The notes below the pieces were generated by a model. It searched no databases, had not been told where the DNA came from, and saw only the letters and a list, made by a program, of their open reading frames with translations. A stretch of DNA of 36,026 bases from an uncultured Caulobacteraceae bacterium (GTDB lineage Bacteria; Pseudomonadota; Alphaproteobacteria; Caulobacterales; Caulobacteraceae): positions 1 to 36,026 of the forward strand of contig CAIXWN010000253.1 of assembly GCA_903923135.1 (NCBI GenBank), read 5' to 3'. Position numbers and translations under genes: made by a program. Shown piece after piece: positions 14,012 through 27,704 of the stretch (within the stretch, counting starts at the first letter, position 1; every line of letters begins with the position of its first letter).

Positions 14012-15061
14012 TCAGCCCGCGAAAAGGGACGCAAATCGACGCTTCGCACGCCGACGCCACCCGCCCCGGTGATAGGCGTCGGACCCGATCAGGGGCACCA
14101 CCGTCGTCGCCTCGGCGAAGACCATCTGCTCCCAGGTGACGTCGACCTTTCCCCAGGAACAGGCTTCCTTGAGCGTCGATGAGGAACAGGCGCCGTCGCG
14201 AACATCGGCCACTGTGATCTGCACGGCGTACTTGTGCATCTCGGCCTCGACACCGAGAATTTCCGCGCAGACCACCGTGTCCTGGGCGAAGTTCTTCGGC
14301 ACGCCGCCCCCCACCATGAACAGCCCCGTCGTCCCGGCGGCGATCTTAATGTCGGTCAGTTCGCGGAAGTCCGCCACCGAATCGATCGTCACATAGGGCT
14401 GCCTCGCCTTGATGCGCTCGACCTGATGTTTGACCAGCCCGAACCCCGCCGAACTGTCGGTGAACGCAGGGCAGAAGATCGGGCAGCCTTCCTCGTAGGC
14501 GGTCTGGATCAGGCTTCCCGGCTTTTTCGCATTACCCGCCGCCAGCCACCGGCCGATCTCATGGATGAACTCCCGCGACGAATAGGGCCTCGGCTCGAGG
14601 CCGTCGGTGATCGACTTGATGGCGTGATCGCAGGCCTGCAGTTCCTCTTCATCGATGTAGGTGTCGTAGATGCGGTCGATGTAGAGGGCGCGCAGGTCCC
14701 GGTCGTCGACGCCCCCTTGGGCCTGATAGTGCCGAAATCCCAAGGCCTCAAAGAAGTCCATGTCGATGATCGAGGCGCCTGTGGCGACCACGACGTCCGC
14801 CATGCCGTACTTCAGCATGTCGCGATAGACGTGCATGCAGCCGCCGGCGCTGGTGGATCCCGCCAGGGTGATCCACACCGAGCAGGCCTCATCCTCAATG
14901 GCCATGGACAGGATATCGGCTGCCCGCGCCGTGTCCCGCGAGGTGAAGCTCATCTTGCGCATGGCGTCGATCACCGGCCGTGCATCATAGGCGGCGATGT
15001 CGACGTGCTCGACCACCTTCGACAGCAACTCGGCCTTGGCGTTAGGGGCAGGGGCATTCAT
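14012..15061 (-). CDS. Deoxyhypusine synthase-like protein (probable homospermidine-type polyamine synthase)
   Basis: 349 residues, homologous along its length to deoxyhypusine synthase: ITLAGSTSAGG, the NAD-binding VVATGASIIDMDF, CPIFCPAFTDSSAGFG, MVGGGVPKNF, and SWGKVDV, whose Lys305 corresponds to the catalytic lysine of deoxyhypusine synthase. Bacteria lack eIF5A, so hypusine formation is not expected; bacterial relatives make homospermidine or guanidino relatives by aminobutyl transfer. The gene lies 93 bases downstream of an ornithine-type decarboxylase on the same strand, which supports a polyamine role. The C-terminus is strongly basic (GGWRRRAKRRFASLFAG). Confidence 0.87.
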   Translation of the reverse strand: MNAPAPNAKAELLSKVVEHVDIAAYDARPVIDAMRKMSFTSRDTARAADILSMAIEDEACSVWITLAGSTSAGGCMHVYRDMLKYGMADVVVATGASIIDMDFFEALGFRHYQAQGGVDDRDLRALYIDRIYDTYIDEEELQACDHAIKSITDGLEPRPYSSREFIHEIGRWLAAGNAKKPGSLIQTAYEEGCPIFCPAFTDSSAGFGLVKHQVERIKARQPYVTIDSVADFRELTDIKIAAGTTGLFMVGGGVPKNFAQDTVVCAEILGVEAEMHKYAVQITVADVRDGACSSSTLKEACSWGKVDVTWEQMVFAEATTVVPLIGSDAYHRGGWRRRAKRRFASLFAG

Positions 15062-15092
15062 GGTGCGGATTCCACTTTCAGATAGGAGGGCG

Positions 15093-15121
15093 CTCCCCCG
15101 GTGATCGATGGCGCCGGGGAG
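15093..15121 (-). promoter_or_regulatory. Hairpin in the decarboxylase-DHS-like intergenic leader
   Basis: Inverted repeat on the plus strand CTCCCCCGG ... CCGGGGAG (15093-15101 with 15114-15121), giving 8 pairs with one bulged C and a 12-base loop. It sits in the 93-base gap between the decarboxylase and the DHS-like gene, 32 bases before the latter's ATG. There is no T-run on the minus-strand side, so an RNA-stability or translation element seems more likely than a terminator. Confidence 0.4.
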
Positions 15122-15154
15122 AGCACGACAAACAGACGGCGCTGCAGATTGGCC

Positions 15155-16396
15155 CTAGCGACGACGGCGCTTCTTGCCTCGCGCCCGCGTCAGCTTGATG
15201 ACAGAGCCGCTGTCCTGGCGCGGGGTGGGGATCGACCTGGGGGCAAGCCCGAACATTGAGGCCATGGGGGCGTCATTCGCCCGCACGGTCTCCACATCGC
15301 CAAATCCATTGAACCGAGTGGCCATGGCGACGCCGTAGGCGCCGAGCATGCCGATCTCGATATGATCGCCCTCGGCGATGTCGTCGGGAAGCCAGAACGG
15401 GCCGGGCATCTGGTCGATGGAGTCGCAGGTCGGGCCGTAGAACTGAAACGGCTTCAAGGGCGCGCTTGAGCCCCCGTCAGCCCGGACAAGTTTTACTGGA
15501 AACGGCCACTTGGAATGCGCAGCGTCGAACAGCGATCCGTAGGCCCCGTCGTTGAGGTAAAGGGCGTCGCCCTTTCGAAGCTCGACACGGGTGAGCAGCG
15601 ATGTGCCCTCCGCCACCAGAGCGCGGCCAGGCTCACACCAAAGCTCGGTGGTCTCGTGGACCATCATTTCGCTGAACCCACGATCGATGGCGGCGACGTA
15701 TTCCGCGAGATCGGGCGGGGCCATGCCCGGATAGACGGATGGAAATCCGCCGCCCACGTCCACGACATCGGCGAAGACCGCAGCGCGAACCAGAGCGCGC
15801 GACGCCTGGGCCATGGCGGCCTGGTAGGCCGAGGGCCGCATGCACTGGCTGCCGACGTGGAAAGAGACGCCCATGAGTTCGCTCGTGGCCTGACGGGTCG
15901 CTCGAAGCAGCTCCGGCGCCTCGTAGGGCGAAATGCCGAATTTGCCGTTAAGCGCGTAGGCCGCCCCCGGCGCCTCGACAGCCAGACGAACGATCAGATT
16001 TAGATCGCGGGCGCCGCCCGTCGCCGCCAGGATCTTCGCCAGTTCAGCATGGCTGTCGAGCGCGAACGTCCTGACGCCATGGTCCGAATAGGCCGAAGCG
16101 ATCGCCGCCCGGCTCTTCACCGGATGCATGAAGGCCATGCGGCTGCCCGGCGCATGGGCGCTGACCAGCTCGATCTCTGCGGTGGAGGCCACATCGAAGC
16201 TGGAGACCCCGTTGGCCGCCAGCTCGCGGATCGCCCACGGCGAAGGGTTCGCCTTCACCGCATAGAACACGTCGCCTGTGAAGCTTGTCCTGAACCAGCG
16301 CGCCGCTACGGCCAGGGCGTCAGGTCGCACGAATGCGACAGGACGTTCCGGCGACCGCTCACGGACCAGGTCCAGGGGTGTATGGTACGTGTGCAA
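15155..16396 (-). CDS. Group IV PLP-dependent ornithine/lysine-type decarboxylase
   Basis: Fold-III (alanine-racemase-like) decarboxylase making putrescine or cadaverine. The PLP lysine is in FYAVKANPSP (Lys48 with this start); other family motifs are FHVGSQ, VVDVGGGFPS, CEPGRALVAEG and the active-site YGPTCDSIDQ. I choose the TTG at 16396 (413 residues) because AGGGGG lies 9 bases upstream and the N-terminus then has the usual short lead into TPLDLVRERSPE. An ATG at 16483 would add 29 residues but has no visible ribosome-binding site. The C-terminal tail is basic (LTRARGKKRRRR). It heads a two-gene unit with the DHS-like enzyme and is divergent from phnC. Confidence 0.9.
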   Translation of the reverse strand: MHTYHTPLDLVRERSPERPVAFVRPDALAVAARWFRTSFTGDVFYAVKANPSPWAIRELAANGVSSFDVASTAEIELVSAHAPGSRMAFMHPVKSRAAIASAYSDHGVRTFALDSHAELAKILAATGGARDLNLIVRLAVEAPGAAYALNGKFGISPYEAPELLRATRQATSELMGVSFHVGSQCMRPSAYQAAMAQASRALVRAAVFADVVDVGGGFPSVYPGMAPPDLAEYVAAIDRGFSEMMVHETTELWCEPGRALVAEGTSLLTRVELRKGDALYLNDGAYGSLFDAAHSKWPFPVKLVRADGGSSAPLKPFQFYGPTCDSIDQMPGPFWLPDDIAEGDHIEIGMLGAYGVAMATRFNGFGDVETVRANDAPMASMFGLAPRSIPTPRQDSGSVIKLTRARGKKRRRR

Positions 16397-16626
16397 TTCA
16401 CGTAGCCCCCTGTAGATTGTTAAACCCAGGCCGGCGTTAGCAGCGCTTTTGAGGACAACGGGTCCGCCGGAGACGGGGCACATAGTGATGAAGGGCGGAC
16501 GTGTAAAGAAAAAATCGGAACTCGGGGCCCGCGCGGACGGACTGGACCGGCCGACGCCGGGCATGGCATGACGGGCTGCGGGTCACGGTCGACCCAAGCG
16601 GCCCCGCGCAAGCCCAAGGAACGCCC

Positions 16627-17424
16627 ATGACGGTCGCCGACGCCGTTCTGTCCGTGCGCAAGGTTTCGAAGAGCTTCGGCGCGGCGCGCGCCCTGGACGA
16701 GGTGTCACTGGAGGTCCGCAAAGGGGAGATGATCGCCCTTATCGGCCCGTCGGGTTCGGGCAAGTCAACGCTCCTGAGGACCATAGCCGGCCTGGCGACC
16801 ATCGACACCGATTCCGGAACCATCGACGGGTTCGACGCCCGACTGCAGGAGAAAGGGCGGCTGACGTCCAGCGTGCGCGACGCGAGGCGACGTATCGGCT
16901 TCATCTTCCAGCAGTTCAATCTGGTCGGACGCCTGTCTCTGTTCACGAATGTGGCGTTAGGGTCGCTCGGACGGATCGGATTCTGGCGCGGTCTCCTCGG
17001 CCGATGGCCTGAGGAAATCCGTGTCGCGGCCATGGCGGCGCTGGTCCGGGTCGGCGTCTCCGAGCGCGCCGGCCAGCGGGCGAACACGCTCTCCGGCGGA
17101 CAGCAGCAGCGGGGCGCCATCGCTCGCACCCTGGTGCAGCGCGCCGAAGTCATCCTCGCGGATGAACCGGTCGCCTCCCTCGATCCGGTTTCCGCCCGCA
17201 GGGTGATGGACATTCTGCGCGACCTCAATCGCCAGGACGGCCTGACCGTTCTCGTGACCCTTCACCAAGTTGACTATGCGCTGCGCTACTGCGACCGCGT
17301 GGTCGCCCTGAAAGGCGGGCGGATAGCCTACGACGGTCCCACCTCCGGTCTCGGCCAGGATATTCTCATCGACATCTACGGCCCTGAGTTTCAGGACGCA
17401 TTCTGGGAAGGAGCGCCGACATGA
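16627..17424 (+). CDS. phnC: Phosphonate-type ABC transporter ATP-binding protein
   Basis: 265 residues. ATPase of a PhnCDE importer. Walker A GPSGSGKST, Q-loop region FIFQQFN, signature LSGGQQQR, Walker B EVILADEPVASLD and H-loop TLHQVDYA are all present and in order. AAGGA stands about 6 bases before the ATG. The stop overlaps the phnD start by 4 bases (ATGA), so the two are translationally coupled. The substrate could be phosphonate, phosphite or phosphate; the ATPase does not tell. Confidence 0.92.
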   Translation: MTVADAVLSVRKVSKSFGAARALDEVSLEVRKGEMIALIGPSGSGKSTLLRTIAGLATIDTDSGTIDGFDARLQEKGRLTSSVRDARRRIGFIFQQFNLVGRLSLFTNVALGSLGRIGFWRGLLGRWPEEIRVAAMAALVRVGVSERAGQRANTLSGGQQQRGAIARTLVQRAEVILADEPVASLDPVSARRVMDILRDLNRQDGLTVLVTLHQVDYALRYCDRVVALKGGRIAYDGPTSGLGQDILIDIYGPEFQDAFWEGAPT

Positions 17425-18443
17425 TCACCCGACGGAGATGGGCCGTTCTCTGGGCCGCGGCGGCCGCGCTGGCCGCGTGCGGCAAGACCGGCCCGGCGCC
17501 GGAATCCCGCCCGCCGGGCGAGGTGCGCTTCTCGGTGCTGTCGACGGAGTCGACCCAGACGATGGCTCAGTACTGGAGCCCGATCCTGGCCGACATGCAG
17601 AAACAGACGGGCCTGAAGGTAACGCCCTATTTTTCCAGTAACTACACGCTGCTGGTGGAAGCCATGCGCTTCAAGAAGACCGATGCGGGGTGGTTTTCCA
17701 ACCAGTCGGGTCTGGAGGCGGTGCGGCGAGGCGGCGGCGAGGTTTTCGCCCGGACCTTCAACGCCTCGGGCGTCGATGGCTATACCTCCGTGCTCATCGT
17801 CAACGCCAAGAGCAATCTGACGCTCGACAAGGTGCTCGCCTGCCACAGGACCCTTTCGTTTGGTCTTGGCGACGTGCTGTCCACCTCCGGGACGCTCGCG
17901 CCGATGACCTACCTGTTCGCGCCCAAGACCATCAAACCCGCCGATTGCTTTAAACAGGTCCGCAGCGGCTCGAGCCATCAGACCAATCTCGTCGCCGTGG
18001 CCAACGGACAGATCGATGTGGCCACCAACAACTCCACCTCGCTGATGCTGAACCAGCAGAACGGCGGCCACGAGTGGGAGAAGGTGCGGGTCATCTGGCG
18101 CTCGCCGGTGCTGCCCGAAGACCCGATCATCTGGCGCAAGGATCTCGACCCGGACGTGAAGGAAAAGCTGCGCCAGTTCTTCCTGACCTATGGCCAGGGC
18201 GACACCCCAGACGCAGCCCGGCAGCGCGCGAACATGGCCAAGGTGCATATCGGGGGGTTCAAGTCGGCAGACGACAATCACCTGCTGCCGGTGCGGGAAA
18301 TGGAGGCGACAGAGCACTGGCTCGTCGCCCGGGATGGCGGCGACCCAGCCAAAATTGCCGCGGCGAAAGCGGCGCTTGACACAATTCGCGACCAGAGGGT
18401 CGCCCTCGAGGCGCGCACACGGGCGCCGGCCGCGGCGCAATAG
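17421..18443 (+). CDS. phnD: Phosphonate-type ABC transporter substrate-binding lipoprotein
   Basis: 340 residues. Begins with a lipoprotein signal: MITRRRW, hydrophobic Ala-rich core and lipobox LAAC (Cys20), so it is anchored at the periplasmic face of the inner membrane. The mature part follows the PhnD/PtxB pattern: FSVLSTESTQTMAQYWSPIL, FSSNYTLLVEAMRF, VLSTSGTLAPMTYLF and IDVATNNSTSLML, which form the anion-binding cleft in this family. Three bases separate its stop from phnE. Confidence 0.9.
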   Translation: MITRRRWAVLWAAAAALAACGKTGPAPESRPPGEVRFSVLSTESTQTMAQYWSPILADMQKQTGLKVTPYFSSNYTLLVEAMRFKKTDAGWFSNQSGLEAVRRGGGEVFARTFNASGVDGYTSVLIVNAKSNLTLDKVLACHRTLSFGLGDVLSTSGTLAPMTYLFAPKTIKPADCFKQVRSGSSHQTNLVAVANGQIDVATNNSTSLMLNQQNGGHEWEKVRVIWRSPVLPEDPIIWRKDLDPDVKEKLRQFFLTYGQGDTPDAARQRANMAKVHIGGFKSADDNHLLPVREMEATEHWLVARDGGDPAKIAAAKAALDTIRDQRVALEARTRAPAAAQ

Positions 18444-18446
18444 CCG

Positions 18447-19250
18447 ATGAGCGGCGCCTCCGAGACCGTTCCCCGTCCGCCTGAGCGCGCGATTGGCGAG
18501 CGACTGTTCGACCTGGCGATCTGGGGCGGCCTGGCCCTGCTTCTGGTGGCGGGCTTCCGTGGGGCGGAAATCGCCAAGATCGGGGACCTGTTCACTGGTA
18601 GCCAGAACATGCGCCAGCTCGGCGTCGAATTTGTCAGGCCCAACTTCACCGAATACCGCCTCTACATCACCGACATGTGGCTGACAGTGCAGATGGCGCT
18701 GTGGGGAACCGCCCTGGCCATCGTCATCGCCATTCCCCTGGGTCTGGCCGGCGCGCGCAATGTGACGCCGGTCTGGGTGCAGCAACCGGTGCGCCGGCTT
18801 CTCGACGTCCTGCGCTCGGTGCCGGATCTGGTGATCGGCGCGATCTTCGTGGTCGCCGTCGGCCTCGGCCCCTTCGCCGGCGTGATGGCTCTGGCCGTGA
18901 ACACCGGCGGCGTGCTTGGGAAGCTCTTCTCCGAAGCTGTGGAGGCCATCGACCGGGCGCCCGTCGAGGGGGTTCGGGCGACGGGGGCGGCTCCGCTTCA
19001 CGAGATCGTCTGGGGCGTGCTGCCGCAGGTCGCGCCGCTGTGGACGAGCTACGCGCTCTATCGGTTCGAAGCCAATGCGCGGTCGGCCACCGTGCTGAGC
19101 CTGATCGGCGCCGGTGGTATCGGCCAGCCGCTCTTCGATTCGATCAACAGCTTCGCCTTCGACCAGACCAGCGCCATCGTCATCGTCATCGTCGTGGCGG
19201 TGTCCGGCATCGATCTGCTGTCACAGGTCATCCGGTCGAGGCTGCTTTAG
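18447..19250 (+). CDS. phnE: Phosphonate-type ABC transporter permease
   Basis: 267 residues with about six hydrophobic helices and the EAA-type coupling loop (EAIDRAPVEGVRATGAAPL) that docks on PhnC. C-terminal LSLIGAGGIGQPLFDSINSF is typical of PhnE-like permeases. No phnG-N C-P lyase gene or htx/ptx oxidoreductase follows; the operon stops here. Its TAG stop shares bases with the TAA stop of the convergent glycosyltransferase gene (TTAG at 19247-19250). Confidence 0.9.
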   Translation: MSGASETVPRPPERAIGERLFDLAIWGGLALLLVAGFRGAEIAKIGDLFTGSQNMRQLGVEFVRPNFTEYRLYITDMWLTVQMALWGTALAIVIAIPLGLAGARNVTPVWVQQPVRRLLDVLRSVPDLVIGAIFVVAVGLGPFAGVMALAVNTGGVLGKLFSEAVEAIDRAPVEGVRATGAAPLHEIVWGVLPQVAPLWTSYALYRFEANARSATVLSLIGAGGIGQPLFDSINSFAFDQTSAIVIVIVVAVSGIDLLSQVIRSRLL

Positions 19251-20356
19251 GAAGAGACGCGGGCGGCGGATTGAGGCCCACGCCTTAGACGGGCCAGACG
19301 CCGCAGGCGGCGCCAGAACCGACTTTTCTCGGGTTCCGGATAGGGCTGCAACAAGCGCAGGAACTCCTCGGCGCACGCGCGCCAGGAATATCGCTCGGCG
19401 ACCGACCGCACATGCGCCCGATCCAGTTGCAGAGCGTCCAGGCAAGCTTGCCGCAAGCCGTCTACCCGCCCTGGCGCCAACACGCCGGCGCCGGTCCCCG
19501 GAATGATGTCCACGGGCCCCGGAGCGGAGAACGCCGCCACGGCCGTCCCCGCGCCCCAGGCTTCGAGGATGACCAGGCCGAAGGTGTCGGTCAGCGAGGG
19601 GAACACGAAGACATCCGCACAGGCGTAGTGGGCCGCAAGGTCGGCGTTGAATTTCGCCCCGACGAATTTCACCTCCGGATAGCGCGCCGCCAGATCCTCC
19701 CGCTGGGGTCCGTCGCCGACGACAACCTTCGTGCCGGGTAGGTCGAGACTGACGAAGGCCTCGATATTCTTCTCCACGGCCACACGGCCGACATTCAGCC
19801 AGATCGGCCGGGCGAGGCCCTCGAATATATCAGGATCACTCTGGCCGCGAGGGCGGAACATCTCGGTGTCCAGCCCCTTCGACCAGAGGGAAATGTTGCG
19901 GAATCCGTGCTGCTCGAGCTCATCCCTCATGGTCGGCGTGGCGACCATCAGACGCCCGGACGGGCGGTGGAACCAGCGCATGTACGCGTAGCCGGCGGCC
20001 AACGGCACAGGCAGGCGGGCAGTGACATACTCGGGAAACCGGGTGTGGTAGCTGGTGGTGAACGGCAGCTTCCACTCGAGGCAGATGCGCCGTGCGGCCA
20101 GGCCGATCGGCCCTTCCGTCGCTATGTGTATGGCTTCGGGTTCGAAGGCCTTGAAGCGCTCCTGAACCTTCTCATAGGCGCCCAGCGCCAGCCTGATCTC
20201 CGGATAGGTTGGCAGGGGCACCGTGGCGAACTGATCGGGGCTGATCACCTCGACCTGTTCATCCATCTGCCGGAGTTCGGCGACCACGCGGGTCAGGGTT
20301 CGGACGACACCATTCACCTGGGGTTCCCAGGCGTCGGTGGCTAAGAGAATGCGCAT
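19247..20356 (-). CDS. GT4-family glycosyltransferase
   Basis: 369 residues, GT-B fold. The N-terminal acceptor domain starts MRILLATDAWEPQVNGVVRTL; the donor domain has NVGRVAVEKNIEAF, VVGDGPQREDL and the catalytic-site segment SLTDTFGLVILEAWGAG. This group resembles enzymes that glycosylate diacylglycerol or phosphatidylinositol, so a membrane glycolipid product is a fair guess but unproven. The C-terminus is Arg-rich (RRLRRLARLRRG), as in peripheral membrane glycosyltransferases. Its ATG overlaps the stop of the upstream metallophosphoesterase by one base (TGATG), so the two are coupled. Confidence 0.87.
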   Translation of the reverse strand: MRILLATDAWEPQVNGVVRTLTRVVAELRQMDEQVEVISPDQFATVPLPTYPEIRLALGAYEKVQERFKAFEPEAIHIATEGPIGLAARRICLEWKLPFTTSYHTRFPEYVTARLPVPLAAGYAYMRWFHRPSGRLMVATPTMRDELEQHGFRNISLWSKGLDTEMFRPRGQSDPDIFEGLARPIWLNVGRVAVEKNIEAFVSLDLPGTKVVVGDGPQREDLAARYPEVKFVGAKFNADLAAHYACADVFVFPSLTDTFGLVILEAWGAGTAVAAFSAPGPVDIIPGTGAGVLAPGRVDGLRQACLDALQLDRAHVRSVAERYSWRACAEEFLRLLQPYPEPEKSRFWRRLRRLARLRRGPQSAARVSS

Positions 20357-21183
20357 CAGGCGATCGAGGGTTCCGATATTGGCGAAGGCGCGTCATCCAC
20401 GCGGCGCGCCCTGTCTATCATGGACCAGGATCGAAGCGCTGCCCAATGCAGGATTTCAAGCCGGCCGTCCGTATGCTCCACCAGGGCGGTGCAGCTCTCC
20501 ACCCAGTCGCCGTCGTTCACATAGAGCGTGCCGGAGAAATCGCGCATCTCGGCCTTGTGGATGTGACCGCAAATGACGCCGTCCACATTCCGCCGCCGCG
20601 CCTCCTCAGCGACCGCCGCCTCGAAATTCTCGATGAACTGCAGGGCGTTCTTCACCCGGGATTTCAGGAACGCCGACAGGCTCCAGTAGCCGAAGCCAAG
20701 ACGGCGGCGCAGCCGGTTGAGCACGGTGTTCAGGGCCAGAAGCGCGCGGTAGGCCACATCTCCGGCAACCGCGAGCCAGGCGGCGTGCTGGACCACCGCG
20801 TCGAACTCGTCGCCGTGCACGACCAGGAAACGGCGACCGTCCGCGGTCTGATGAAGGGCGTCTCGGGCCACCGTCACGCCGCCGAAATGAACGCCGCAGA
20901 AGTCGCGGACGCGATCATCGTGGTTTCCGGGAATATACGTCACCACGGCGCCCTTCCGCGCGAGGCGGAGAATCTTCTGGACCACATCGTTGTGGGTCTG
21001 GGGCCAATGCCAGCCCCGCTTCAACCGCCATCCGTCGACGATGTCTCCCACCAGATAGAGCCGCTCGCAGGTCGTGTGCCTGAGGAAATCGAGCAGAAGC
21101 TCCGCCTGGCAACCACGTGTCCCCAGGTGCAAATCCGAGATGAACACACTGCGGTAGTGGGTCGGCGTTATCTGATCCGTCAT
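20356..21183 (-). CDS. LpxH-like calcineurin-type metallophosphoesterase
   Basis: 275 residues from the ATG at 21183. Complete two-metal phosphoesterase set: ISDLHLG (Asp17, His19), LVGDIVD (Asp47), PGNHDD (Asn86, His87), VVHGDEFD and CGHIHKAEM. It is similar to UDP-2,3-diacylglucosamine hydrolase (LpxH) relatives. Alphaproteobacteria such as Caulobacter use the unrelated LpxI for lipid A, so this protein probably cleaves another phosphate ester, perhaps in the glycolipid path of the coupled glycosyltransferase. The frame stays open upstream, but the family N-terminus begins at this ATG. It lies 80 bases after the DUF1365 gene, same strand. Confidence 0.85.
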   Translation of the reverse strand: MTDQITPTHYRSVFISDLHLGTRGCQAELLLDFLRHTTCERLYLVGDIVDGWRLKRGWHWPQTHNDVVQKILRLARKGAVVTYIPGNHDDRVRDFCGVHFGGVTVARDALHQTADGRRFLVVHGDEFDAVVQHAAWLAVAGDVAYRALLALNTVLNRLRRRLGFGYWSLSAFLKSRVKNALQFIENFEAAVAEEARRRNVDGVICGHIHKAEMRDFSGTLYVNDGDWVESCTALVEHTDGRLEILHWAALRSWSMIDRARRVDDAPSPISEPSIA

Positions 21184-21263
21184 GCCCGCCGCGCCCCTCT
21201 CAGGGTCGAAACGGGTAGGCTGATTGCTTGTCGGTTTTGTGAACCCGGCCGCGGCCGTCCGCG

Positions 21264-22046
21264 TCAGCGGGGCGGAACGAGCGTAACTCCGGCGCGGGGC
21301 GCTGGAGGACCGGCACGTAGTCGCAGCCCCTTGGCCAGCATTTTGACCGCCTCCCAATGGATGGCGACGACCACCCCCAGGGTTAGGAACGGGAAGGCCA
21401 GCAGGACGCGGAGCAATGCGCCGTCCGACAGTTCGCGGCGCCGGCCGGTGAAGCTGGCGAAAATCATCGGATCGCCGCCGCCAGTGCGGCCATTGACGGT
21501 CGTGGCGATGGTCGGACCGGGAGGACCCATTCGGAAGTCGTAGACAATGTCCATGTCCATGAAGGGCGAGACATGGAAATCCTTCGCGCAGGATTGCTGG
21601 ACGAGTTCGCCCTGCGAGGCGTCTTTCGGAATCAGGTAGGTATGACGCTGGCCGAAGGTGTTGTTCACCTCGTAGAGCATCGCCATGAGATCGCCGTCAG
21701 GGCCGTAGCCGTAATAGATGCTCAGCGGATTGAAGACGTGCCCGAAGATCCGCGGCATGCAGAGCAGGCGGATTTTCCCGCCGACCGACGACAGGCCGGC
21801 CTGCCCCATCAAGCCTTCCACGTAGGGCCGCAGAGGCTGGCCTGAGCCGTCTCCGTGGTCGGCGTCGTAGAAGCTGAAGGCGTTAAACCGGTTGTGCGAG
21901 AACAGGCGCAACCGAGCCGACAGATCCGGCAGCTCGTCCAGATCGAACAGCATCTGGAACATGCCGTAGCGAAGTCCGTGACGCTTCGGCGAGAAGCGCT
22001 GGTGGACGACCTCGCCCACGTACAGACCCGAAGCCCAGCCGCTCAA
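21264..22046 (-). CDS. DUF1365 family protein
   Basis: 260 residues. Family pattern: GLYVGEVVHQRFSPKRHGLRY at the N-terminus, RIFGHVFNPLSIYYGYGPDG in the middle, EVNNTFGQRHTYLIP and a conserved KDFHVSPFMDMD. A hydrophobic helix near residues 210-228 (LRVLLAFPFLTLGVVVAIHW) suggests membrane association. The function of DUF1365 is not established; it typically neighbours FAD amine-oxidase-like and CFA-synthase-like genes, as here. It overlaps the FAD gene by 4 bases (ATGA), so they are coupled. Confidence 0.87.
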   Translation of the reverse strand: MSGWASGLYVGEVVHQRFSPKRHGLRYGMFQMLFDLDELPDLSARLRLFSHNRFNAFSFYDADHGDGSGQPLRPYVEGLMGQAGLSSVGGKIRLLCMPRIFGHVFNPLSIYYGYGPDGDLMAMLYEVNNTFGQRHTYLIPKDASQGELVQQSCAKDFHVSPFMDMDIVYDFRMGPPGPTIATTVNGRTGGGDPMIFASFTGRRRELSDGALLRVLLAFPFLTLGVVVAIHWEAVKMLAKGLRLRAGPPAPRAGVTLVPPR

Positions 22047-23407
22047 AGCGCCAGCTCGGGCGACGCGGCGGGGGCGGCGTTCGCGGTCAGGTGGATGCGT
22101 CCCGACTCGTCGGCCACCGTCCAGGGGCGTCTGCCCCCCCCGATGGCTTCGGCGACCGCCAGCCCGGCCTGCAGGCCGTCCTCATGAAAGCCCGAGCCGA
22201 AATAGGCCCCGCACCACCAGACCCCGCCCTCCCCCTGGAGAGACCAGAGCTGCTTCTGGGCGCGGATGGCGGCAGCGTCGAAACGCGGATGCTCGTAGAC
22301 TTCGGTCCTGACGACCTTGGCCGGGTCGGGCGGCTGCAGGGGGTTTAGGGTGACGAACAGCGGCGTGTGCGCCGGCAGATCCTGCAGGCGGTTCATCCAG
22401 TAGGTCACACAGAGCGACCGGTCCCCTCCGGGGCCGGTGCGTCCCATATAGTTCCAGGCCGACCAGAGCCCGCGCCGGCGCGGCATCAGGGCGAGATCCG
22501 AATGCAGGACGGTGAGATTGCGGCTGTAGCCGAAAGCGCCGAGCACGGCCTGTTCGCGCGGGGACGGCGCTTCCAGCAGGGCCAGTGCCTGATCGGCGTG
22601 GCAGGCGATCACCACCTGGTCGAACGTCTGCCGGCCACCGGTCACGTCCCGCACCACCACGCCCTCGGGCGTTCGCGCCACGCCGGCCACTCCAGCGCCC
22701 AGGCGGACCCGGTCGGCGTAGGTCGCGGTCAGACGCGACACATAGGCGCGGCTGCCGCCGTCAACGGTGCGCCAGACGGGCCGGTCGGTGATCTTCAGCA
22801 GGCCGTGGTTCTCGCAGAAACGGATGAACGCCGCGGCCGGATAGTCGCGTATGTCCCGCGCCGACGCCGACCAGATAGCCGCTGCCTGGGGGATCAGATG
22901 GTCGTTCTGGAAGGCGGCGCCATAGCGGCCCCGATCGAGAAAATCGCCCAGGGTGGTCATGTCCGCTTCCAGCGCTTTCGCATGAGCCGGCGCCTCGCGA
23001 TAGAATCGCAGAAGATCGCTCAGCATCGACCAGAACCTCGGACTGACAAGATTGCGCCACTGGGAGAACAGGGTGACCAGGTTGTCGCCGCCGTACTCCA
23101 TTCGTCCACCATCGAGGCTGACGGCGAAGCCCATGTTGGAGTCCTTGGTCGGCACACCGAGGTGGTCGAACAGCGCCACAAGATTGGGATAGTTCACCGC
23201 GTTGTAGACGATGAACCCCGTGTCGACGGGGATGTCGCCGTGCGGCGAAGGGGCATCAACGGTGTGGCTGTGACCACCGAGCCGGTCCTCGGACTCGTAG
23301 ACGGTGACGTCGTGGGCCTGGGACAGCAGCCAGGCGGCCGACATGCCCGAAATGCCGGTTCCGATGATCGCTATCTTCTGGCGCGTTCGGTTTTGTGGGA
23401 TGGTCAC
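22043..23407 (-). CDS. FAD-dependent amine-oxidase/desaturase-like protein (candidate UfaD-like)
   Basis: 454 residues from a GTG. N-terminal FAD Rossmann motif IGTGISGMSAA (GTGISG at 16-21), then VYESEDRLGGHSHT with the ribose-binding Glu, and a C-terminal FAD segment WWCGAYFGSGFHEDGLQAG. This type is found with DUF1365 and CFA-like genes. In Rhodobacter sphaeroides UfaD is the fatty acid desaturase of furan fatty acid synthesis; assigning this protein to that step is inference from domain type and neighbourhood. It opens the left arm of the RpoE locus and has a TGATCC-N18-TAGA promoter about 60 bases upstream. Confidence 0.85.
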   Translation of the reverse strand: MTIPQNRTRQKIAIIGTGISGMSAAWLLSQAHDVTVYESEDRLGGHSHTVDAPSPHGDIPVDTGFIVYNAVNYPNLVALFDHLGVPTKDSNMGFAVSLDGGRMEYGGDNLVTLFSQWRNLVSPRFWSMLSDLLRFYREAPAHAKALEADMTTLGDFLDRGRYGAAFQNDHLIPQAAAIWSASARDIRDYPAAAFIRFCENHGLLKITDRPVWRTVDGGSRAYVSRLTATYADRVRLGAGVAGVARTPEGVVVRDVTGGRQTFDQVVIACHADQALALLEAPSPREQAVLGAFGYSRNLTVLHSDLALMPRRRGLWSAWNYMGRTGPGGDRSLCVTYWMNRLQDLPAHTPLFVTLNPLQPPDPAKVVRTEVYEHPRFDAAAIRAQKQLWSLQGEGGVWWCGAYFGSGFHEDGLQAGLAVAEAIGGGRRPWTVADESGRIHLTANAAPAASPELAL

Positions 23408-23467
23408 GGGGTAGGCTTACGCTCCGGTCTTGGCCCCCACATCATAGGGACATGGCTCTGGCGCGAA

Positions 23468-23497
23468 AGTCTACGCCAGACGGGGCGGCGCGGATCA
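23468..23497 (-). promoter_or_regulatory. Predicted RpoE (ECF11) promoter for the FAD-DUF1365 operon
   Basis: On the minus strand: TGATCC (23497-23492), 18 bases, TAGACT (23473-23468). The reading TGATCCGCG-N9-TGGCGTAGA is shared with the divergent promoter of rpoE. The -35 and spacer length agree with the described Rhodobacter RpoE promoter form (TGATCC, about 18 bases, TAAGA-like). The GTG of the FAD gene lies about 60 bases downstream. Confidence 0.7.
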
Positions 23498-23521
23498 AGA
23501 GCGGCCGGCGCGGGCTTGGGG

Positions 23522-23551
23522 TGATCCGCGATTTCGCGGATGGCGTAGAAA
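23522..23551 (+). promoter_or_regulatory. Predicted autoregulated RpoE promoter for rpoE-chrR
   Basis: TGATCC (23522-23527), 18 bases, TAGAAA (23546-23551), about 83 bases before the rpoE start codon. It shares TGATCCGCG-N9-TGGCGTAGA with the opposite promoter; the two -35 elements are back to back, 24 bases apart. This fits positive autoregulation of an ECF sigma factor. Confidence 0.72.
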
Positions 23552-23634
23552 GAGTCATGCATGCGACCTTGTCTGGCGGCCGTCACGGCGCGATTCCGGG
23601 GACCGCCCCGACATCGGAGGCGGTCTTTCGCTCC

Positions 23635-24210
23635 ATGAACACGCCCCCGGCGCCTCGCGGTCCGGACGGCGCCACCCTGTCCGGCCTTATTGTGAGAATC
23701 GCCGAGCGCGGCGATCGCGAGGCCTTTACCGCTCTGTTCAGTCACTTCGCTCCGAGGGTGAAGAGCTATCTGCTGCGCCTCGGCGCCGCGCCGGAGGCCG
23801 CCGAGGAGCTCGCCCAGGAAACTCTTCTCACCGTCTGGCGCCGAGCCGCCTCGTTCGATCCTTCCCGGGCCGCCGCCTCCACCTGGATCTTCACCATCGC
23901 CCGGAACCTACGGATCGACCTGTCGCGCCGGGACGGACGGTCGCCTCCGGTCGATGACCCGTCGATGATGAACGACGGCCCCTCCCGGCCGGACGATGCG
24001 CTGGGCGCGGTTGAGGACGAAGCCCGCATCCTTGCGGCCATGGCGCGGCTGCCCGCCGAGCAGGCCCAGGTGATCACCCTGGCCTTTTACGCCGACAAGC
24101 CCCACTCCGAGATCGCCGGGGACCTCGGACTGCCTCTTGGCACCGTCAAGTCGCGGTTGAGGCTGGCCATGGCGCGACTGCGCATCGCCCTGGCGGAGCC
24201 ACCCCTTTGA
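23635..24210 (+). CDS. rpoE: ECF sigma factor, RpoE/ECF11 type
   Basis: 191 residues from the ATG at 23635; an in-frame ATG at 23557 falls right at the predicted transcription start and is less likely. Region 2 spans FTALFSHFAPRVKSYLLRLG through ASTWIFTIARNLRIDLSRR, and region 4 is the C-terminal MARLPAEQAQVITLAFYA ... EIAGDLGLPLGTVKSRL helix-turn-helix. There is no region 1.1 or 3, as in ECF factors. The downstream anti-sigma gene overlaps it by 4 bases (TTGA). The pairing with a ChrR protein and the TGATCC promoter points to the singlet-oxygen/peroxide-responsive group. Confidence 0.92.
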   Translation: MNTPPAPRGPDGATLSGLIVRIAERGDREAFTALFSHFAPRVKSYLLRLGAAPEAAEELAQETLLTVWRRAASFDPSRAAASTWIFTIARNLRIDLSRRDGRSPPVDDPSMMNDGPSRPDDALGAVEDEARILAAMARLPAEQAQVITLAFYADKPHSEIAGDLGLPLGTVKSRLRLAMARLRIALAEPPL

Positions 24211-24845
24211 GCGCCTCGCACCATCCCGCCGAGGCGCTGCTGGTGGACTATGCGAGCGGAGCCCTTCGCGGCGGAGGCCGCATGGTCCTGAGCAGCCACC
24301 TGATGGCCTGTCCGGCCTGCCGCGACTCCATCGCCCGGTTCGAGGCCGTGGGCGGCGCCCTGCTGTCCGCCCTTCCGCCCGCCACGCTCCACAAGGACGC
24401 CCTTGCCCTGGCCCTGGCGAGAATTGAACGGCCCGTGCCGCCCGCGCCTGCGACCACCGGGCCGATCGCGGGCTGGATCACGACCCCCGCGGATGTGGTG
24501 CGCGCCGCCCGGGATCGGCGCCGCTGGGCCGCTCCGGGGGTCTGGGTGGCGTCCGTCACGCGAGGACCGGGTCGGGCGAGCACCTACCTGCTGGGCGTCG
24601 CCGCTGGCATGACCGTGCCGCGCCATACCCATCGCGGCGCCGAGATGGTCTGTGTTCTCAAGGGCGCCTATGTGGATGACGATGTCCGCCATGCGCCCGG
24701 GGATTTCGCCTTCAACGACGACAGCGTCGATCACCGCCCCGGTATCACCGCGGAGGGCGACTGCGTCTGTCTGGTGTTCACAGAGGCGCCGCTGGTGCCG
24801 CGCGACTGGGTCGGCCGTCTGTTCCAGCCGCTGGTGGGTATCTGA
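24207..24845 (+). CDS. chrR: ChrR-type zinc anti-sigma factor with cupin domain
   Basis: 212 residues from a TTG that overlaps the rpoE stop. The N-terminal anti-sigma domain has zinc ligands His6, His31, Cys35, Cys38, the same positions as in Rhodobacter sphaeroides ChrR, which supports the TTG start. The C-terminal cupin has His140, His142, Glu146 and His176, one residue off the Rhodobacter metal ligands. The family role: the N-terminal domain holds RpoE inactive, and the cupin domain is needed for release by singlet oxygen. It is followed directly by the hydrolase gene (TGATG). Confidence 0.93.
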   Translation: MSASHHPAEALLVDYASGALRGGGRMVLSSHLMACPACRDSIARFEAVGGALLSALPPATLHKDALALALARIERPVPPAPATTGPIAGWITTPADVVRAARDRRRWAAPGVWVASVTRGPGRASTYLLGVAAGMTVPRHTHRGAEMVCVLKGAYVDDDVRHAPGDFAFNDDSVDHRPGITAEGDCVCLVFTEAPLVPRDWVGRLFQPLVGI

Positions 24846-25720
24846 TGAATATTCTGGTCTCTCTGGGCGTGACCGTGCTCACCCTGTCATCCCCAGGAGG
24901 GGTCAGCGTGCGTCACGACCTGATCTATGCGCAGGGCGGGCGGGGGCGGATGGACGTCTATGCGCCGCGCACCGTCAAACCCCATGCTCCGGTCGCCGTG
25001 TTTGTCTATGGCGGCAGCTGGCAGTCGGGCGAGAAGGCCCTCTATCGCTTCGTTGGCGTATCCCTCGCCTCGCGCGGAATCGTCACGGTCATTCCAGACT
25101 ATCGGGTCTACCCGGAAGTCCGTTATCCGACGTTCCTGAACGACAACGCCCAGGCTGTGGCCTACGCCGCGCGCCATGCCGCCGAATGGGGCGGCGATCC
25201 TGGCCGGCTGTTCCTGGTCGGCCATTCGGCCGGCGCCTACAACGCCGCGATGCTGGCGCTGGACCCCCGCTGGCTGGGCGCGGTCGGCTTGAACGCGCGG
25301 CGGGACGTGGCCGGCGTCGTCGGATTGGCCGGTCCTTACGATTTCCTGCCTCTGCGCGACCCCAAGCTGAAGACCATCTTCGGGCCGGACGATCAGCTGG
25401 CCGACACCCAGCCGATCAACCATGTTGATGGAAGCGCCCCGCCCATGCGCCTGCTGGCCGGCGACAAGGACACCGTGGTGGACCCCGCCAACGCCACGCG
25501 CCTGGCCGCCGCCATCCGCGCCCGCGGCGGGACGGTCTCGACGCGGCTCTACCCAGGCCTCGGTCATGTGAGTCTGCTGACCGCTGTGTCGGGCCTGTTC
25601 CGCGGTCGCGCGCCGGTGCTCGACGACATCGCCGGCTTCATAAACGGCGCGCCCGCCCCAGTCAGAGCCGCCGCTGGCGTCAACGGGCTTAGCCCGCAAC
25701 CCGTGGGAGCGGCCTCATGA
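24845..25720 (+). CDS. BD-FAE-like alpha/beta hydrolase (esterase/carboxylesterase type)
   Basis: 291 residues. Features of the esterase/lipase branch: VFVYGGSWQSGEK (in the HGGxW place), VIPDYRVYPEVRYP, nucleophile elbow VGHSAGAYN with Ser128, RLLAGDKDTVVDP with the likely acid Asp, and YPGLGHVSLL with the catalytic His. The N-terminus is hydrophobic (MNILVSLGVTVLTLS) and could be a signal or membrane-anchor sequence, so periplasmic action is possible. It is coupled to chrR (TGATG) and to the CFA-like gene (ATGA), so it belongs to the stress operon. A lipid or peroxidised-lipid ester is a plausible substrate but not shown. Confidence 0.85.
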   Translation: MNILVSLGVTVLTLSSPGGVSVRHDLIYAQGGRGRMDVYAPRTVKPHAPVAVFVYGGSWQSGEKALYRFVGVSLASRGIVTVIPDYRVYPEVRYPTFLNDNAQAVAYAARHAAEWGGDPGRLFLVGHSAGAYNAAMLALDPRWLGAVGLNARRDVAGVVGLAGPYDFLPLRDPKLKTIFGPDDQLADTQPINHVDGSAPPMRLLAGDKDTVVDPANATRLAAAIRARGGTVSTRLYPGLGHVSLLTAVSGLFRGRAPVLDDIAGFINGAPAPVRAAAGVNGLSPQPVGAAS

Positions 25721-26760
25721 GTCTCACCGCCGCCGCAGGCCGCGCTGTCGAACGTCTGCCGGTGCCGGATGCCGTGACGCGTCTGGGCATCGGCTATCTT
25801 GTAGCCCGCGCCCGCCGCCGGCTGGGGATCGGGCCCGACGGCGCCGAGGCGGCCTTCGCCGAAGATATGCGCGATCACCCGATCGCCGAGAACACCGACG
25901 ACGCCAACGCACAGCACTATGAAGTGCCGGCCGACTTCTTCCGTCTCGTGCTGGGGCCGCGCCGCAAGTATTCCAGCGGCCTCTACGACGCCGGCGTCTC
26001 GACCCTGGCCCAGGCCGAGGAACGCGCCCTGGCCGAGACCTGCGCCCACGCCGATCTCGCCGACGGCCAGGACATCCTCGAACTGGGCTGCGGCTGGGGC
26101 TCGCTCAGCCTGTGGATGGCGGAGCACTACCCCAGGGCGCGCATCACCGCCGTCTCCAATTCCCGCTCGCAGCGGACCGCAATAGAGGCGACCGCCCGCG
26201 AGAAGGGCTTCGACAATCTCACCGTCATCACCTGCGACATGAACGACTTTCAGACCGACGCCCGGTTCGACCGCGTTGTGTCAGTGGAGATGTTTGAGCA
26301 CATGTCAAACTGGCAGGCCCTGCTGGGCCGGGTGGCGACGTGGCTGCGCCCGGACGGTCGGCTGTTCCTCCACGTTTTCACTCACCGCGACACGCCCTAC
26401 CGCTTCGACATGAACGACAAGGAGGACTGGATCGCCCAGCACTTCTTCACCGGCGGCATCATGCCCAGCCACGGCCTGATCCGCCGGTTCCCGGACCTCT
26501 TCACCGTCGAGGCGGACTGGCGCTGGAGCGGCGAGCATTATCGGCGGACCGCGATGGACTGGCTGGCCAATTTCGACCGCCACTCCGATCAGATCGACGG
26601 CATTCTGCGCGGCGTCTACGGCGAAGACCTGGCCATGTGGAAACGACGCTGGCGGGTGTTTTTCCTGGCGACGGCCGGATTGTTCGGCGACAGTGGCGGC
26701 GCGGTCTGGGGGGTGAGTCACTATCGCCTGAAGCCTGCCGCGCCCGGGGAGGCCGTCTGA
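25717..26760 (+). CDS. CFA-synthase-like SAM methyltransferase (candidate UfaM/CfaA-like)
   Basis: 347 residues. It has the phospholipid-acyl methylase pattern: HYEVPADFFRLVLGPRRKYSS, SAM motif LELGCGWGSL (Glu122 to Gly128), VSVEMFEHM, and HRDTPYRFDMNDKEDWIAQH in the acyl/bicarbonate-site region. It differs from classic CFA synthase in HYEVPADFF in place of the usual HYDxGNDFF. This shorter form is the one found in RpoE-ChrR regulons; in Rhodobacter such methylases make methylated unsaturated fatty acids, precursors of furan fatty acids. Function here is inferred. Confidence 0.9.
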   Translation: MSLTAAAGRAVERLPVPDAVTRLGIGYLVARARRRLGIGPDGAEAAFAEDMRDHPIAENTDDANAQHYEVPADFFRLVLGPRRKYSSGLYDAGVSTLAQAEERALAETCAHADLADGQDILELGCGWGSLSLWMAEHYPRARITAVSNSRSQRTAIEATAREKGFDNLTVITCDMNDFQTDARFDRVVSVEMFEHMSNWQALLGRVATWLRPDGRLFLHVFTHRDTPYRFDMNDKEDWIAQHFFTGGIMPSHGLIRRFPDLFTVEADWRWSGEHYRRTAMDWLANFDRHSDQIDGILRGVYGEDLAMWKRRWRVFFLATAGLFGDSGGAVWGVSHYRLKPAAPGEAV

Positions 26761-27167
26761 TGCTGCGCTATGTCGTCGCCTGGCTGGGAGCGGGCCTGCT
26801 CCTGGCCGGCCTGGACGCCGTCTGGCTGACCACCACCAACGCCAGCCTCTATCGGCCGACACTGGGCAAACTGCTCGCCGACAGCCCTCATATGGGTCCG
26901 GCCGTTCTGTTCTACCTGGTCTACCTGGTGGGGGTGGTCATCTTCGCCGTGTCGCCGGCAATCCGCAGCGGCCGCTGGAGGGACGCCACCCTGATGGGGG
27001 GCCTGTTCGGCTTCTTCTGTTACGCCACCTACGACCTGACCAACCAGGCCACCCTGGTCGTGTGGGCGACGAAGATTACCATTATCGACCTGTGCTGGGG
27101 AACGTTCCTCACGGCCTCGGGGGCAACGGCGGGCTATTTCGCCTCGAAGCTCGTGGCGAAACGCTAG
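26760..27167 (+). CDS. DUF2177 family membrane protein
   Basis: 135 residues from the ATG that overlaps the CFA-like stop by one base (TGATG). About four membrane helices: VVAWLGAGLLLAGLDAVWL, VLFYLVYLVGVVIFAV, LMGGLFGFFCYATYDLTNQ and IDLCWGTFLTASGATAGYF. DUF2177 has no known function but is seen with CFA-type and RpoE-ChrR genes. Its stop shares bases with the stop of the convergent msrC (CTAG, 27164-27167). Confidence 0.87.
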   Translation: MLRYVVAWLGAGLLLAGLDAVWLTTTNASLYRPTLGKLLADSPHMGPAVLFYLVYLVGVVIFAVSPAIRSGRWRDATLMGGLFGFFCYATYDLTNQATLVVWATKITIIDLCWGTFLTASGATAGYFASKLVAKR

Positions 27168-27661
27168 ATCGCGAAGCTCTGGCGGAGGATGGCTTCCAGC
27201 CCCGCCTGGTCGGCCTCGTCGAACGCCGCCGGTTCGGTGCTGTCGACGTCCAGAACGGCGATGAGCCCGCCGTCGCCATCGAACACCGGAACGACGATCT
27301 CGCTGCGCGAGCGCGAATCACAGGCGATGTGGCCAGGGAAGGCCTCGACATCGGCAACGATCACCGTTTGCCGCTCGGCCGCCGCCAGGCCGCAGACACC
27401 GCGGCCGAACGCGATCCTCAGGCAACCCAGGGTTCCCTGATAGGGGCCCACGACCAGCTCGTCCGGCTTGTCCCGATCGACCACATAGAACCCGGTCCAG
27501 AAGAAGGTGTCGAACGAGGCCGCCAGCAGGCTCGCGACCGTCGCCATGCGCGCCACGCGGTTGGTCTCGCCCTCCAGCACGGCGGCGATCTCTCCCAGCA
27601 GGACGCCGTAGCGGTCGGCCTTCCCGGCGGGCAGGGTCTGGGCGCTGAAGGCTTCGGCCAT
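27164..27661 (-). CDS. msrC: Free methionine-(R)-sulfoxide reductase, GAF domain (fRMsr)
   Basis: 165 residues, the usual length for this single GAF-domain enzyme, which reduces free Met-R-SO with thioredoxin. The three conserved cysteines are present: Cys80 in LGCLRIAFG, Cys90 in GVCGLAA and Cys114 in HIACDS, with the same spacing (10 and 24) as E. coli Cys84/94/118. The GAF core (VVPVFDGDGGLIAVLDVDS) follows. It is convergent with DUF2177 and lies next to the oxidative-stress locus, which fits a repair role, although it is not under the visible RpoE promoters. Confidence 0.9.
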   Translation of the reverse strand: MAEAFSAQTLPAGKADRYGVLLGEIAAVLEGETNRVARMATVASLLAASFDTFFWTGFYVVDRDKPDELVVGPYQGTLGCLRIAFGRGVCGLAAAERQTVIVADVEAFPGHIACDSRSRSEIVVPVFDGDGGLIAVLDVDSTEPAAFDEADQAGLEAILRQSFAI

Positions 27662-27704
27662 GGTCGACCTATAACCTGCGCCCCGCCGCGGGTCAGCCAC
27701 GGGC

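Follow-up and report, generated by a model that had tools for sequence, protein, structure and literature searches.

The 36,026-nucleotide (nt) stretch analysed here (the window), part of contig CAIXWN010000253.1 (C253) of an uncultured Caulobacteraceae genome of 4.6 Mb in 279 contigs, carries nine genes at 19247..27167, all of them open frames, which we consider likely to form an RpoE–ChrR-controlled island for the synthesis of a dimethyl furan fatty acid (FuFA) abutting a phosphate-response lipid unit. The plus arm runs from rpoE through chrR, an esterase gene and a gene for a FufM-type methylase to one for a DUF2177 protein. The minus arm runs from ufaD to ufaO and, after a gap of 80 nt, to plcP-like and agt-like genes. 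An original prediction from the DNA letters had proposed a locus that makes methylated or furan fatty acids. Its core of an RpoE–ChrR locus with predicted FuFA genes holds, while enzyme assignments and membership have changed. The extracytoplasmic function (ECF) sigma factor, ChrR, the cyclopropane fatty acid (CFA)-type methylase, the flavin adenine dinucleotide (FAD) protein and the DUF1365 protein that it named were all recovered by Pfam match and coordinates. It also had almost every junction overlapping by 1–4 bases, which is borne out for six of the seven within-arm junctions (agt/plcP, chrR/esterase and methylase/DUF2177 by 1 nt; ufaO/ufaD, rpoE/chrR and esterase/methylase by 4 nt). The total stops at six because ufaO and the phosphoesterase gene are separated by the 80-nt gap.

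Conservation was read in 149 genomes of the family and in 12 of the genus, the window's own included; the twelfth genus genome (G050) has no ufaO, DUF2177, ChrR or FufM match. Counts for named loci refer to the best 80 of at least 585 confirmed loci, many of them cut by contig ends.

The regulatory switch

ChrR, a zinc/cupin anti-sigma factor (24207..24845, plus strand; Pfam Cupin_7 and zf-HC2), scores 161.7 bits against TIGR02451 (cut-off 124.5) and aligns with PDB 2z2s at E 5.5e-30, with 71 of 190 aligned residues identical. Its score against NF051881, the NCBIfam equivalog for the cadmium/peroxide/UV ChrR, is 146.6 bits, where more than 300 are required. The original prediction credited ChrR with all eight expected metal ligands, and the alignment to 2z2s agrees (H6, H31, C35, C38, H141, H143, E147 and H177; 8/8 kept). 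Four of these ligand positions are N-terminal. Ligands of the cupin-like domain are named in PMC6852236. The partner sigma factor RpoE (23635..24210, plus; Pfam Sigma70_r2 and Sigma70_r4_2) most likely starts at ATG 23635, 3' of its promoter, and a GTG frame further upstream is also open. With the ligands kept and the sigma gene adjoining chrR behind a TGATCC-type site, the pair fits the ECF11 type.

The 227-nt gap between ufaD and rpoE contains two outward-facing copies of TGATCC-N17-GTAGA, sigma-E-type sites for the ufaD–ufaO arm (23470..23497, minus) and the rpoE–chrR arm (23522..23549, plus). We take TGATCC to be the sigma-E -35 box. The window holds these two matches against 0.02 expected, and none of 100 shuffles had two. 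A slightly looser pattern gave 17 matches in 160 kb from 15 loci of the 11 other genus genomes, all directly 5' of ufaD in the divergent gap. The gap was read in 11 genus genomes (the window counted); all 11 keep the ufaD-side site and 8 keep a site facing rpoE, while in G056 rpoE lies on a separate contig. Both sites are kept in the genus although the sequence between the boxes varies. Scanning the whole genome returned five matches versus one in the control, and the third meaningful one ends 55 nt 5' of a photolyase frame that overlaps a full-length frame for a CFA-type methylase of the UfaM type. This phr gene adjoins ufaM in 10 of the 12 genus genomes, and the motif precedes 6 of those 10. 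The corresponding stretch of G061 (L199:2646-4410) keeps the sigma-E-type site and ufaM, but of the photolyase match only about 114 residues are left ahead of ufaM, as though the photolyase gene had largely been lost and the promoter and ufaM retained. Judging by these sites, RpoE–ChrR probably turns on both flanking FuFA gene arms.

The presumed regulation by singlet oxygen is carried over from reports on Rhodobacter sphaeroides and Caulobacter crescentus. We give a minor but real share of belief to a different main signal (cadmium, organic hydroperoxide or UV-A), with singlet oxygen minor and the FuFAs acting as structural antioxidants, not messengers. The title of a 2009 paper by Lourenco and Gomes names cadmium and UV-A, which counts towards such a signal. 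So does the finding that sigma-E–ChrR of C. crescentus is activated fast by organic hydroperoxides as well as by singlet oxygen, and more slowly by other inducers (PMC6852236). Such a signal is, however, compatible with the same enzymology, and the signal itself is not readable from DNA.

Predicted furan ring formation

The first two genes of the minus arm encode the predicted desaturase and ring-forming enzyme. The UfaO homologue (21264..22046, minus) is the sole DUF1365 match in the genome (PF07103, E 3.9e-76, 256 bits against a cut-off of 25), adjoins UfaD within the FuFA gene set and has an AlphaFold model with a pLDDT of 92.8. In R. sphaeroides UfaO (RSP1090) is a DUF1365 protein and UfaD a FAD protein (PMC7380195). 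We therefore predict that the DUF1365 protein is UfaO, an O2-dependent former of the furan ring that would yield 9M5-FuFA from a methylated diene. Because RSP1090 is itself DUF1365, the oxygen-insertion step needs no extra candidate, and the alpha/beta hydrolase, DUF2177 protein, phosphoesterase and glycosyltransferase suggested for that role become superfluous.

The UfaD homologue (22043..23407, minus; Pfam Amino_oxidase PF01593 and NAD_binding_8 PF13450) is an FAD/NAD-binding, phytoene-desaturase/amine-oxidase-like protein adjoining UfaO. It is 58–62% identical to five alphaproteobacterial relatives that adjoin DUF1365 and 49% identical to the gene that two Rhodopseudomonas genomes hold in ufaD-ufaO-ufaM order. 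We predict it to be an 11-methyl-18:1 desaturase. Its best solved relative is LkcE, named as an amine oxidase (E 4.6e-45), which may serve as a template for the desaturase. The original prediction asked for co-conservation in relatives and this was found, with ufaO, DUF2177 and the FufM-type methylase co-occurring and ufaD beside ufaO in 58 of the best 80 named loci.

A probable phosphate-response lipid unit

Beyond the gap lie a metallophosphoesterase (20356..21183, minus; Pfam Metallophos) and a family 4 glycosyltransferase (GT4; 19247..20356, minus; Pfam Glyco_transf_4/Glyco_trans_1_4). The phosphoesterase, once read as LpxH-like, is far below the LpxH cut-offs (54 against 190.35 bits for TIGR01854; 48.5 against 134 bits for NF003743), and by these curated thresholds it is not LpxH, the UDP-2,3-diacylglucosamine diphosphatase. 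Together with the GT4 protein, which reaches no NCBIfam equivalog cut-off for other GT4s, it resembles PlcP–Agt. In all 12 genus genomes the agt-like gene comes after plcP, and the order plcP then agt, with Pho boxes, is described in PMC4796936.

A conserved Pho-box-like promoter element, TTCACAAAACCGACAAGCAATCAGCCTA, stands upstream of plcP (21216..21243, minus). The pattern TTCACAAAAnnGACAAGCAATCAGCyTA or a close variant precedes plcP in all 12 genus genomes regardless of the upstream neighbour, and the window's copy is the only match in its own genome at up to two mismatches of the 24-base core. The classical Pho box consists of GTCAY direct repeats 11 bp apart; the window element is degenerate, with one mismatch in the first half-site and two in the second. 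In other genera, 15 of 20 upstream regions (12 genera) score 19–26 of 28, where the maximum was 17 among 1000 mononucleotide shuffles that keep single-base content only; the other five do not. Exact repeats were seen by eye in three of the 20 (G011, G012 and G049), G011 being among the five low scorers.

Should these two genes nonetheless be counted as integral to one sigma-E regulon, with a protective glycolipid or the removal of damaged lipids as their task and UfaM among the window's enzymes? We find this improbable. The pair does lie on the same strand as ufaD–ufaO. In the gap we found no terminator-like site on the plcP strand, the sole such site being on the other strand, so that read-through from the sigma-E arm into plcP–agt is possible. 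Linkage is also tight within the genus, where the plcP and ufaO matches are no more than about 215 nt apart in 8 of 12 genomes, 2.4 and 3.2 kb apart in two (G085 and G071), and unlinked or without ufaO in two (G050 and G080). However, plcP keeps its own element even in the last four genomes, and the element is common in other genera, where plcP is never near ufaO. A close plcP homologue occurs in 92 of the 149 family genomes and ufaO in 80 of these, with the two genes within 10 kb in 10 of the 80, all in this genus. Outside the genus none of 69 has them within 10 kb; in 13 they share a contig at least 54.5 kb apart and in the rest they lie on different draft contigs. Moreover, plcP or agt occurs near FufM in 1 of the best 80 named loci (L102), and by identity and tree the window methylase is not UfaM. 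Because of its own conserved element and a ufaO linkage confined to the genus, the PlcP–Agt pair, which the original prediction placed among the arm members, is best read as a neighbouring phosphate-response lipid unit with its own putative promoter.

Convergent with the agt-like gene are genes for a phosphonate/phosphite ATP-binding cassette transporter resembling phnC-phnD-phnE (16627–19250, plus), PhnD being recognised by TIGR01098 and PhnC and PhnE by eye. Six other genus loci (G061, G043, G090, G066, G085 and G071) also have a phnD-like gene, some 1 to 2 kb past agt; none was seen in G033, G020, G050, G056 and G080, the stretches of G056 and G080 having been read for up to 1.6 kb.

Two methylases

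The S-adenosylmethionine methylase of the window (25717..26760, plus; Pfam CMAS) had been taken for UfaM. It is 61–62% identical, over at least 340 residues, to a Rhodopseudomonas gene beside DUF1295 and 27–32% identical to UfaM and CFA types. In a tree of 45 rows, for which the program warns of long branches meeting at the deepest split, it falls outside the UfaM clade and within a FufM clade (100/100) that includes the DUF1295-adjacent Rhodopseudomonas type, and a separate fork (90/93) joins this genome's UfaM with Rhodopseudomonas UfaM. The best PDB relatives of the window protein are coclaurine- and pavine-type N-methyltransferases, coclaurine N-methyltransferase first; those of the UfaM-type gene are CFA synthases. 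The plant protein AT4G33110 is coclaurine-methyltransferase-like. FufM is reported to resemble it at 37.87% (PMC10940516).

The UfaM orthologue lies in trans, beside the photolyase (G000:C178), and is 46–48% identical to the ufaO-adjacent methylase of Rhodopseudomonas and 34% to the other CFA-type gene there. Two Rhodopseudomonas genomes (AAP120 and B29) have three strong CMAS matches each, one adjoining ufaO-ufaD, one without the queried neighbours and one beside DUF1295. For R. palustris, PMC7380195 describes UfaM beside UfaO and UfaD, together with RPA3082 (38% identical to R. sphaeroides UfaM, deletion without effect) and FufM RPA0924 (26%), the last of which makes dimethyl-FuFA (9D5-FuFA). 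We predict from these relationships that the window methylase is of the FufM type and would carry out the second ring methylation, 9M5-FuFA to 9D5-FuFA. In the family, FufM matches (E 1e-60) occur in 89 of 149 genomes, 89 of 89 with UfaO, and in none of the 18 genomes without UfaO (p 1.3e-8); co-occurrence p-values here and below ignore shared descent. This confinement is as expected if FufM uses the product of UfaO.

Least probable of all is a reading in which no dimethyl-FuFA forms, the window enzyme either standing in for UfaM at the first methylation or yielding a cyclopropane or some different product. In its favour, the locus contains no other methylase, the substrate is unreadable from sequence, and 29 of 89 genomes have no FufM-type gene within 8 kb of ufaO (partly through contig ends). 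Against it, all 12 genus genomes have a separate UfaM-type gene, the tree puts the window protein with the FufM type and the photolyase-linked gene with the ufaO-adjacent type, and in published work FufM did not significantly methylate 18:1(11Z) (PMC7380195).

DUF2177 and the esterase

The last gene of the plus arm encodes a DUF2177 membrane protein of 135 amino acids (aa) (26760..27167, plus; PF09945, E 1.2e-42), starting at ATG 26760. DUF2177 is a tight conserved companion of UfaO: DUF1365 and DUF2177 occur together in 128 of the 149 family genomes, DUF1365 only in 3, DUF2177 only in 2 and neither in 16 (Fisher 1.2e-16), and they are within 8 kb in 103 of the 128. The distance between DUF2177 and FufM is at most 1.6 kb in 69 of 88 family genomes, and DUF2177 falls in the 10-kb flanks of FufM in 55 of the best 80 named alphaproteobacterial loci. 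Deletions in R. sphaeroides covered RSP1087-1089, with products of 245, 186 and 402 aa (PMC7380195). None of these has the length of DUF2177, which thus seems to fall outside those deletions. More speculatively, DUF2177, with DUF1295 as a frequent partner, might be an unrecognised component of the FuFA pathway from Alphaproteobacteria to green algae within singlet-oxygen regulons, a membrane protein that would present or finish the FuFA phospholipid or relay its oxidation product towards ChrR. The same tentative proposal makes dimethyl-FuFA the finished messenger in this genus, since the rpoE-chrR transcription unit itself includes fufM and DUF2177.

The esterase between chrR and the methylase gene (24845..25720, plus) is BD-FAE/hormone-sensitive-lipase-like (Pfam BD-FAE, E 6.1e-28; PDB esterases at E 2.7e-16 to 9.7e-11). 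The alpha/beta hydrolase of the original prediction is thus a recurrent member, near FufM in 21 of the best 80 named loci, and an optional one, as G066, G033, G071 and G080 have no esterase in this position.

Several observations weigh against a dimethyl-FuFA island under RpoE–ChrR control. The promoter pattern is missing from 3 of 11 rpoE arms and 4 of 10 phr-ufaM operons. By itself the motif is not specific, since among its five genome-wide matches one falls inside a coding frame and another stands 248 nt ahead of an oxidase gene that looks unrelated. The FufM assignment was made through two Rhodopseudomonas relatives as stand-ins for RPA0924. Within the family FufM and ChrR occur independently of each other (p = 0.50), and 53 of 131 UfaO genomes have no clear ChrR match, the lipid genes often occurring without ChrR; these ChrR counts keep 80 of 92 matched genomes, leaving out 12 with a best match weaker than 1e-10, plus second copies. 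Of the 50 genomes with both, 17 have FufM no more than 4 kb from ChrR, and 10 of the 17 belong to this genus. This independence marks fufM in the rpoE operon as local wiring. Finally, the locus is known here as DNA, and the lipid and expression side of the dimethyl-FuFA reading is predicted.

Comparison with known systems

R. sphaeroides (Rhodobacter/Cereibacter) has a similar arrangement, an ECF11-type RpoE–ChrR adjoining ufaD-ufaO (RSP1091-1087), with photolyase and UfaM as further RpoE targets (RSP2143-2144). There phrA RSP_2143 and cfaS RSP_2144 are RpoE regulon members (PMC7074977), and RSP2144 is ufaM (PMC7380195). Unlike here, its operon runs on into RSP1089 (GPH symporter), RSP1088 (hypothetical) and RSP1087, three genes that FuFA synthesis does not require. 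R. sphaeroides is described as making 9D5-FuFA once given R. palustris fufM, whereas here a FufM-type gene and DUF2177 stand in the rpoE-chrR unit. R. palustris has the same four enzymes (RPA2571-2569 for ufaD-ufaO-ufaM and RPA0924 for fufM), and its relatives AAP120 and B29 have the three-methylase set; in the latter two, unlike here, no rpoE-chrR, ufaD or ufaO was detected in the stretches read around the DUF1295-adjacent FufM-type gene (L161 and L175). Among the papers listed by searches of the open-licence literature, supplements excluded, we found none placing fufM or DUF2177 in an rpoE-chrR operon.

Related layouts occur in rhizobial and other alphaproteobacterial loci, such as those on a plasmid of Phyllobacterium sp. 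628 (L042), in R. tropici (L043) and in Shinella (L045). They have rpoE-chrR close to ufaD-ufaO, divergently so in L042, accompanied by esterase, DUF1295, FufM-type and DUF2177 genes in varied mixes. DUF1295 is usual in alphaproteobacterial loci (63 of the best 80 named) and absent from the locus genes of the window; the rhizobial and similar loci have no PlcP–Agt. In L118 (Caulobacter vibrioides OR37) esterase, DUF1295, FufM, DUF2177, rpoE and chrR matches stand in a row in one orientation, and the 21-kb stretch shows neither ufaO nor ufaD; this is another wiring of the same parts. Eight loci of Brevundimonas, Phenylobacterium and others (L110, L111, L114, L119, L123, L125, L127 and L139) have ufaO-ufaD divergent from fufM-DUF2177. 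The stretches show no match to rpoE-chrR, and a different regulator may therefore control these lipid genes.

The predicted PlcP–Agt pair is like that of Phaeobacter, SAR11, Erythrobacter and Agrobacterium (Agt) in having a metallophosphoesterase then a GT4, a Pho-box-like element and a phosphonate-type transporter nearby. The likeness is one of family, gene order and element, and among the family genomes sampled the pair is near FuFA genes in this genus only. The SAK1-dependent singlet-oxygen set of Chlamydomonas contains CFA1, CFA2 (Cre09.g398700, also labelled CPLD27 coclaurine N-methyltransferase), DUF1365, DUF2177 and DUF1295 (PMC4067076), a likeness of parts only, in a eukaryote, and furan-type modification in Chlamydomonas is under investigation according to a review. 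Further related papers are PMC6445935, PMC11208175, PMC11313482 and PMC8491031.

Two other features of the window lie outside the nine genes. A GAF-domain protein (27164–27667, minus), convergent with DUF2177 and overlapping it by 4 nt, presumably resembles free methionine-(R)-sulfoxide reductase, which repairs oxidative damage. At 14012–16564 (minus) two adjoining frames resemble deoxyhypusine/homospermidine-synthase-type and ornithine-decarboxylase-type enzymes, a presumed polyamine pair.

Proposed mechanism and significance

The gene families, promoter-like sites, tree orthology and co-conservation observed above can be assembled into a working scheme, with the chemistry of UfaM, UfaD, UfaO and FufM and the feedback on ChrR borrowed from literature on other species. 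ChrR, through its zinc anti-sigma domain and cupin sensor, would hold RpoE, and loss of ChrR would let RpoE fire the two outward promoters. One arm would then supply UfaD and UfaO and the other more RpoE–ChrR, esterase, FufM and DUF2177, while a third RpoE-type promoter elsewhere would drive photolyase–UfaM. UfaM would methylate cis-vaccenoyl chains of membrane phospholipids, UfaD would desaturate the methylated chains, UfaO would insert oxygen from O2 and close the ring to give 9M5-FuFA, and FufM would add the second ring methyl to give 9D5-FuFA. Singlet oxygen destroys FuFAs, and R. sphaeroides requires its FuFA genes to turn over ChrR (PMC6852236); the FufM product may therefore be both shield and messenger in a positive loop. 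PlcP–Agt would be a separate phosphate-response unit that swaps phospholipid head groups for sugars and would affect FuFA lipids only indirectly. We infer production of 9D5-FuFA by this organism, control of that production by RpoE, and Pho control of PlcP–Agt.

The step from a singlet-oxygen event at the membrane to the destruction of an anti-sigma factor in the cytoplasm is described as an open gap in a 2019 review, where FuFA oxidation is put forward to carry the message (PMC6852236). The locus couples the last predicted ring methylation and the DUF2177 membrane protein to the switch itself, which makes the messenger question approachable by single-gene deletions. The DUF2177 link suggests where to look for the role of this family, and it may hold for algae too. 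The analysis also separates two lipid programmes, for singlet oxygen and for phosphate, that annotation would merge.

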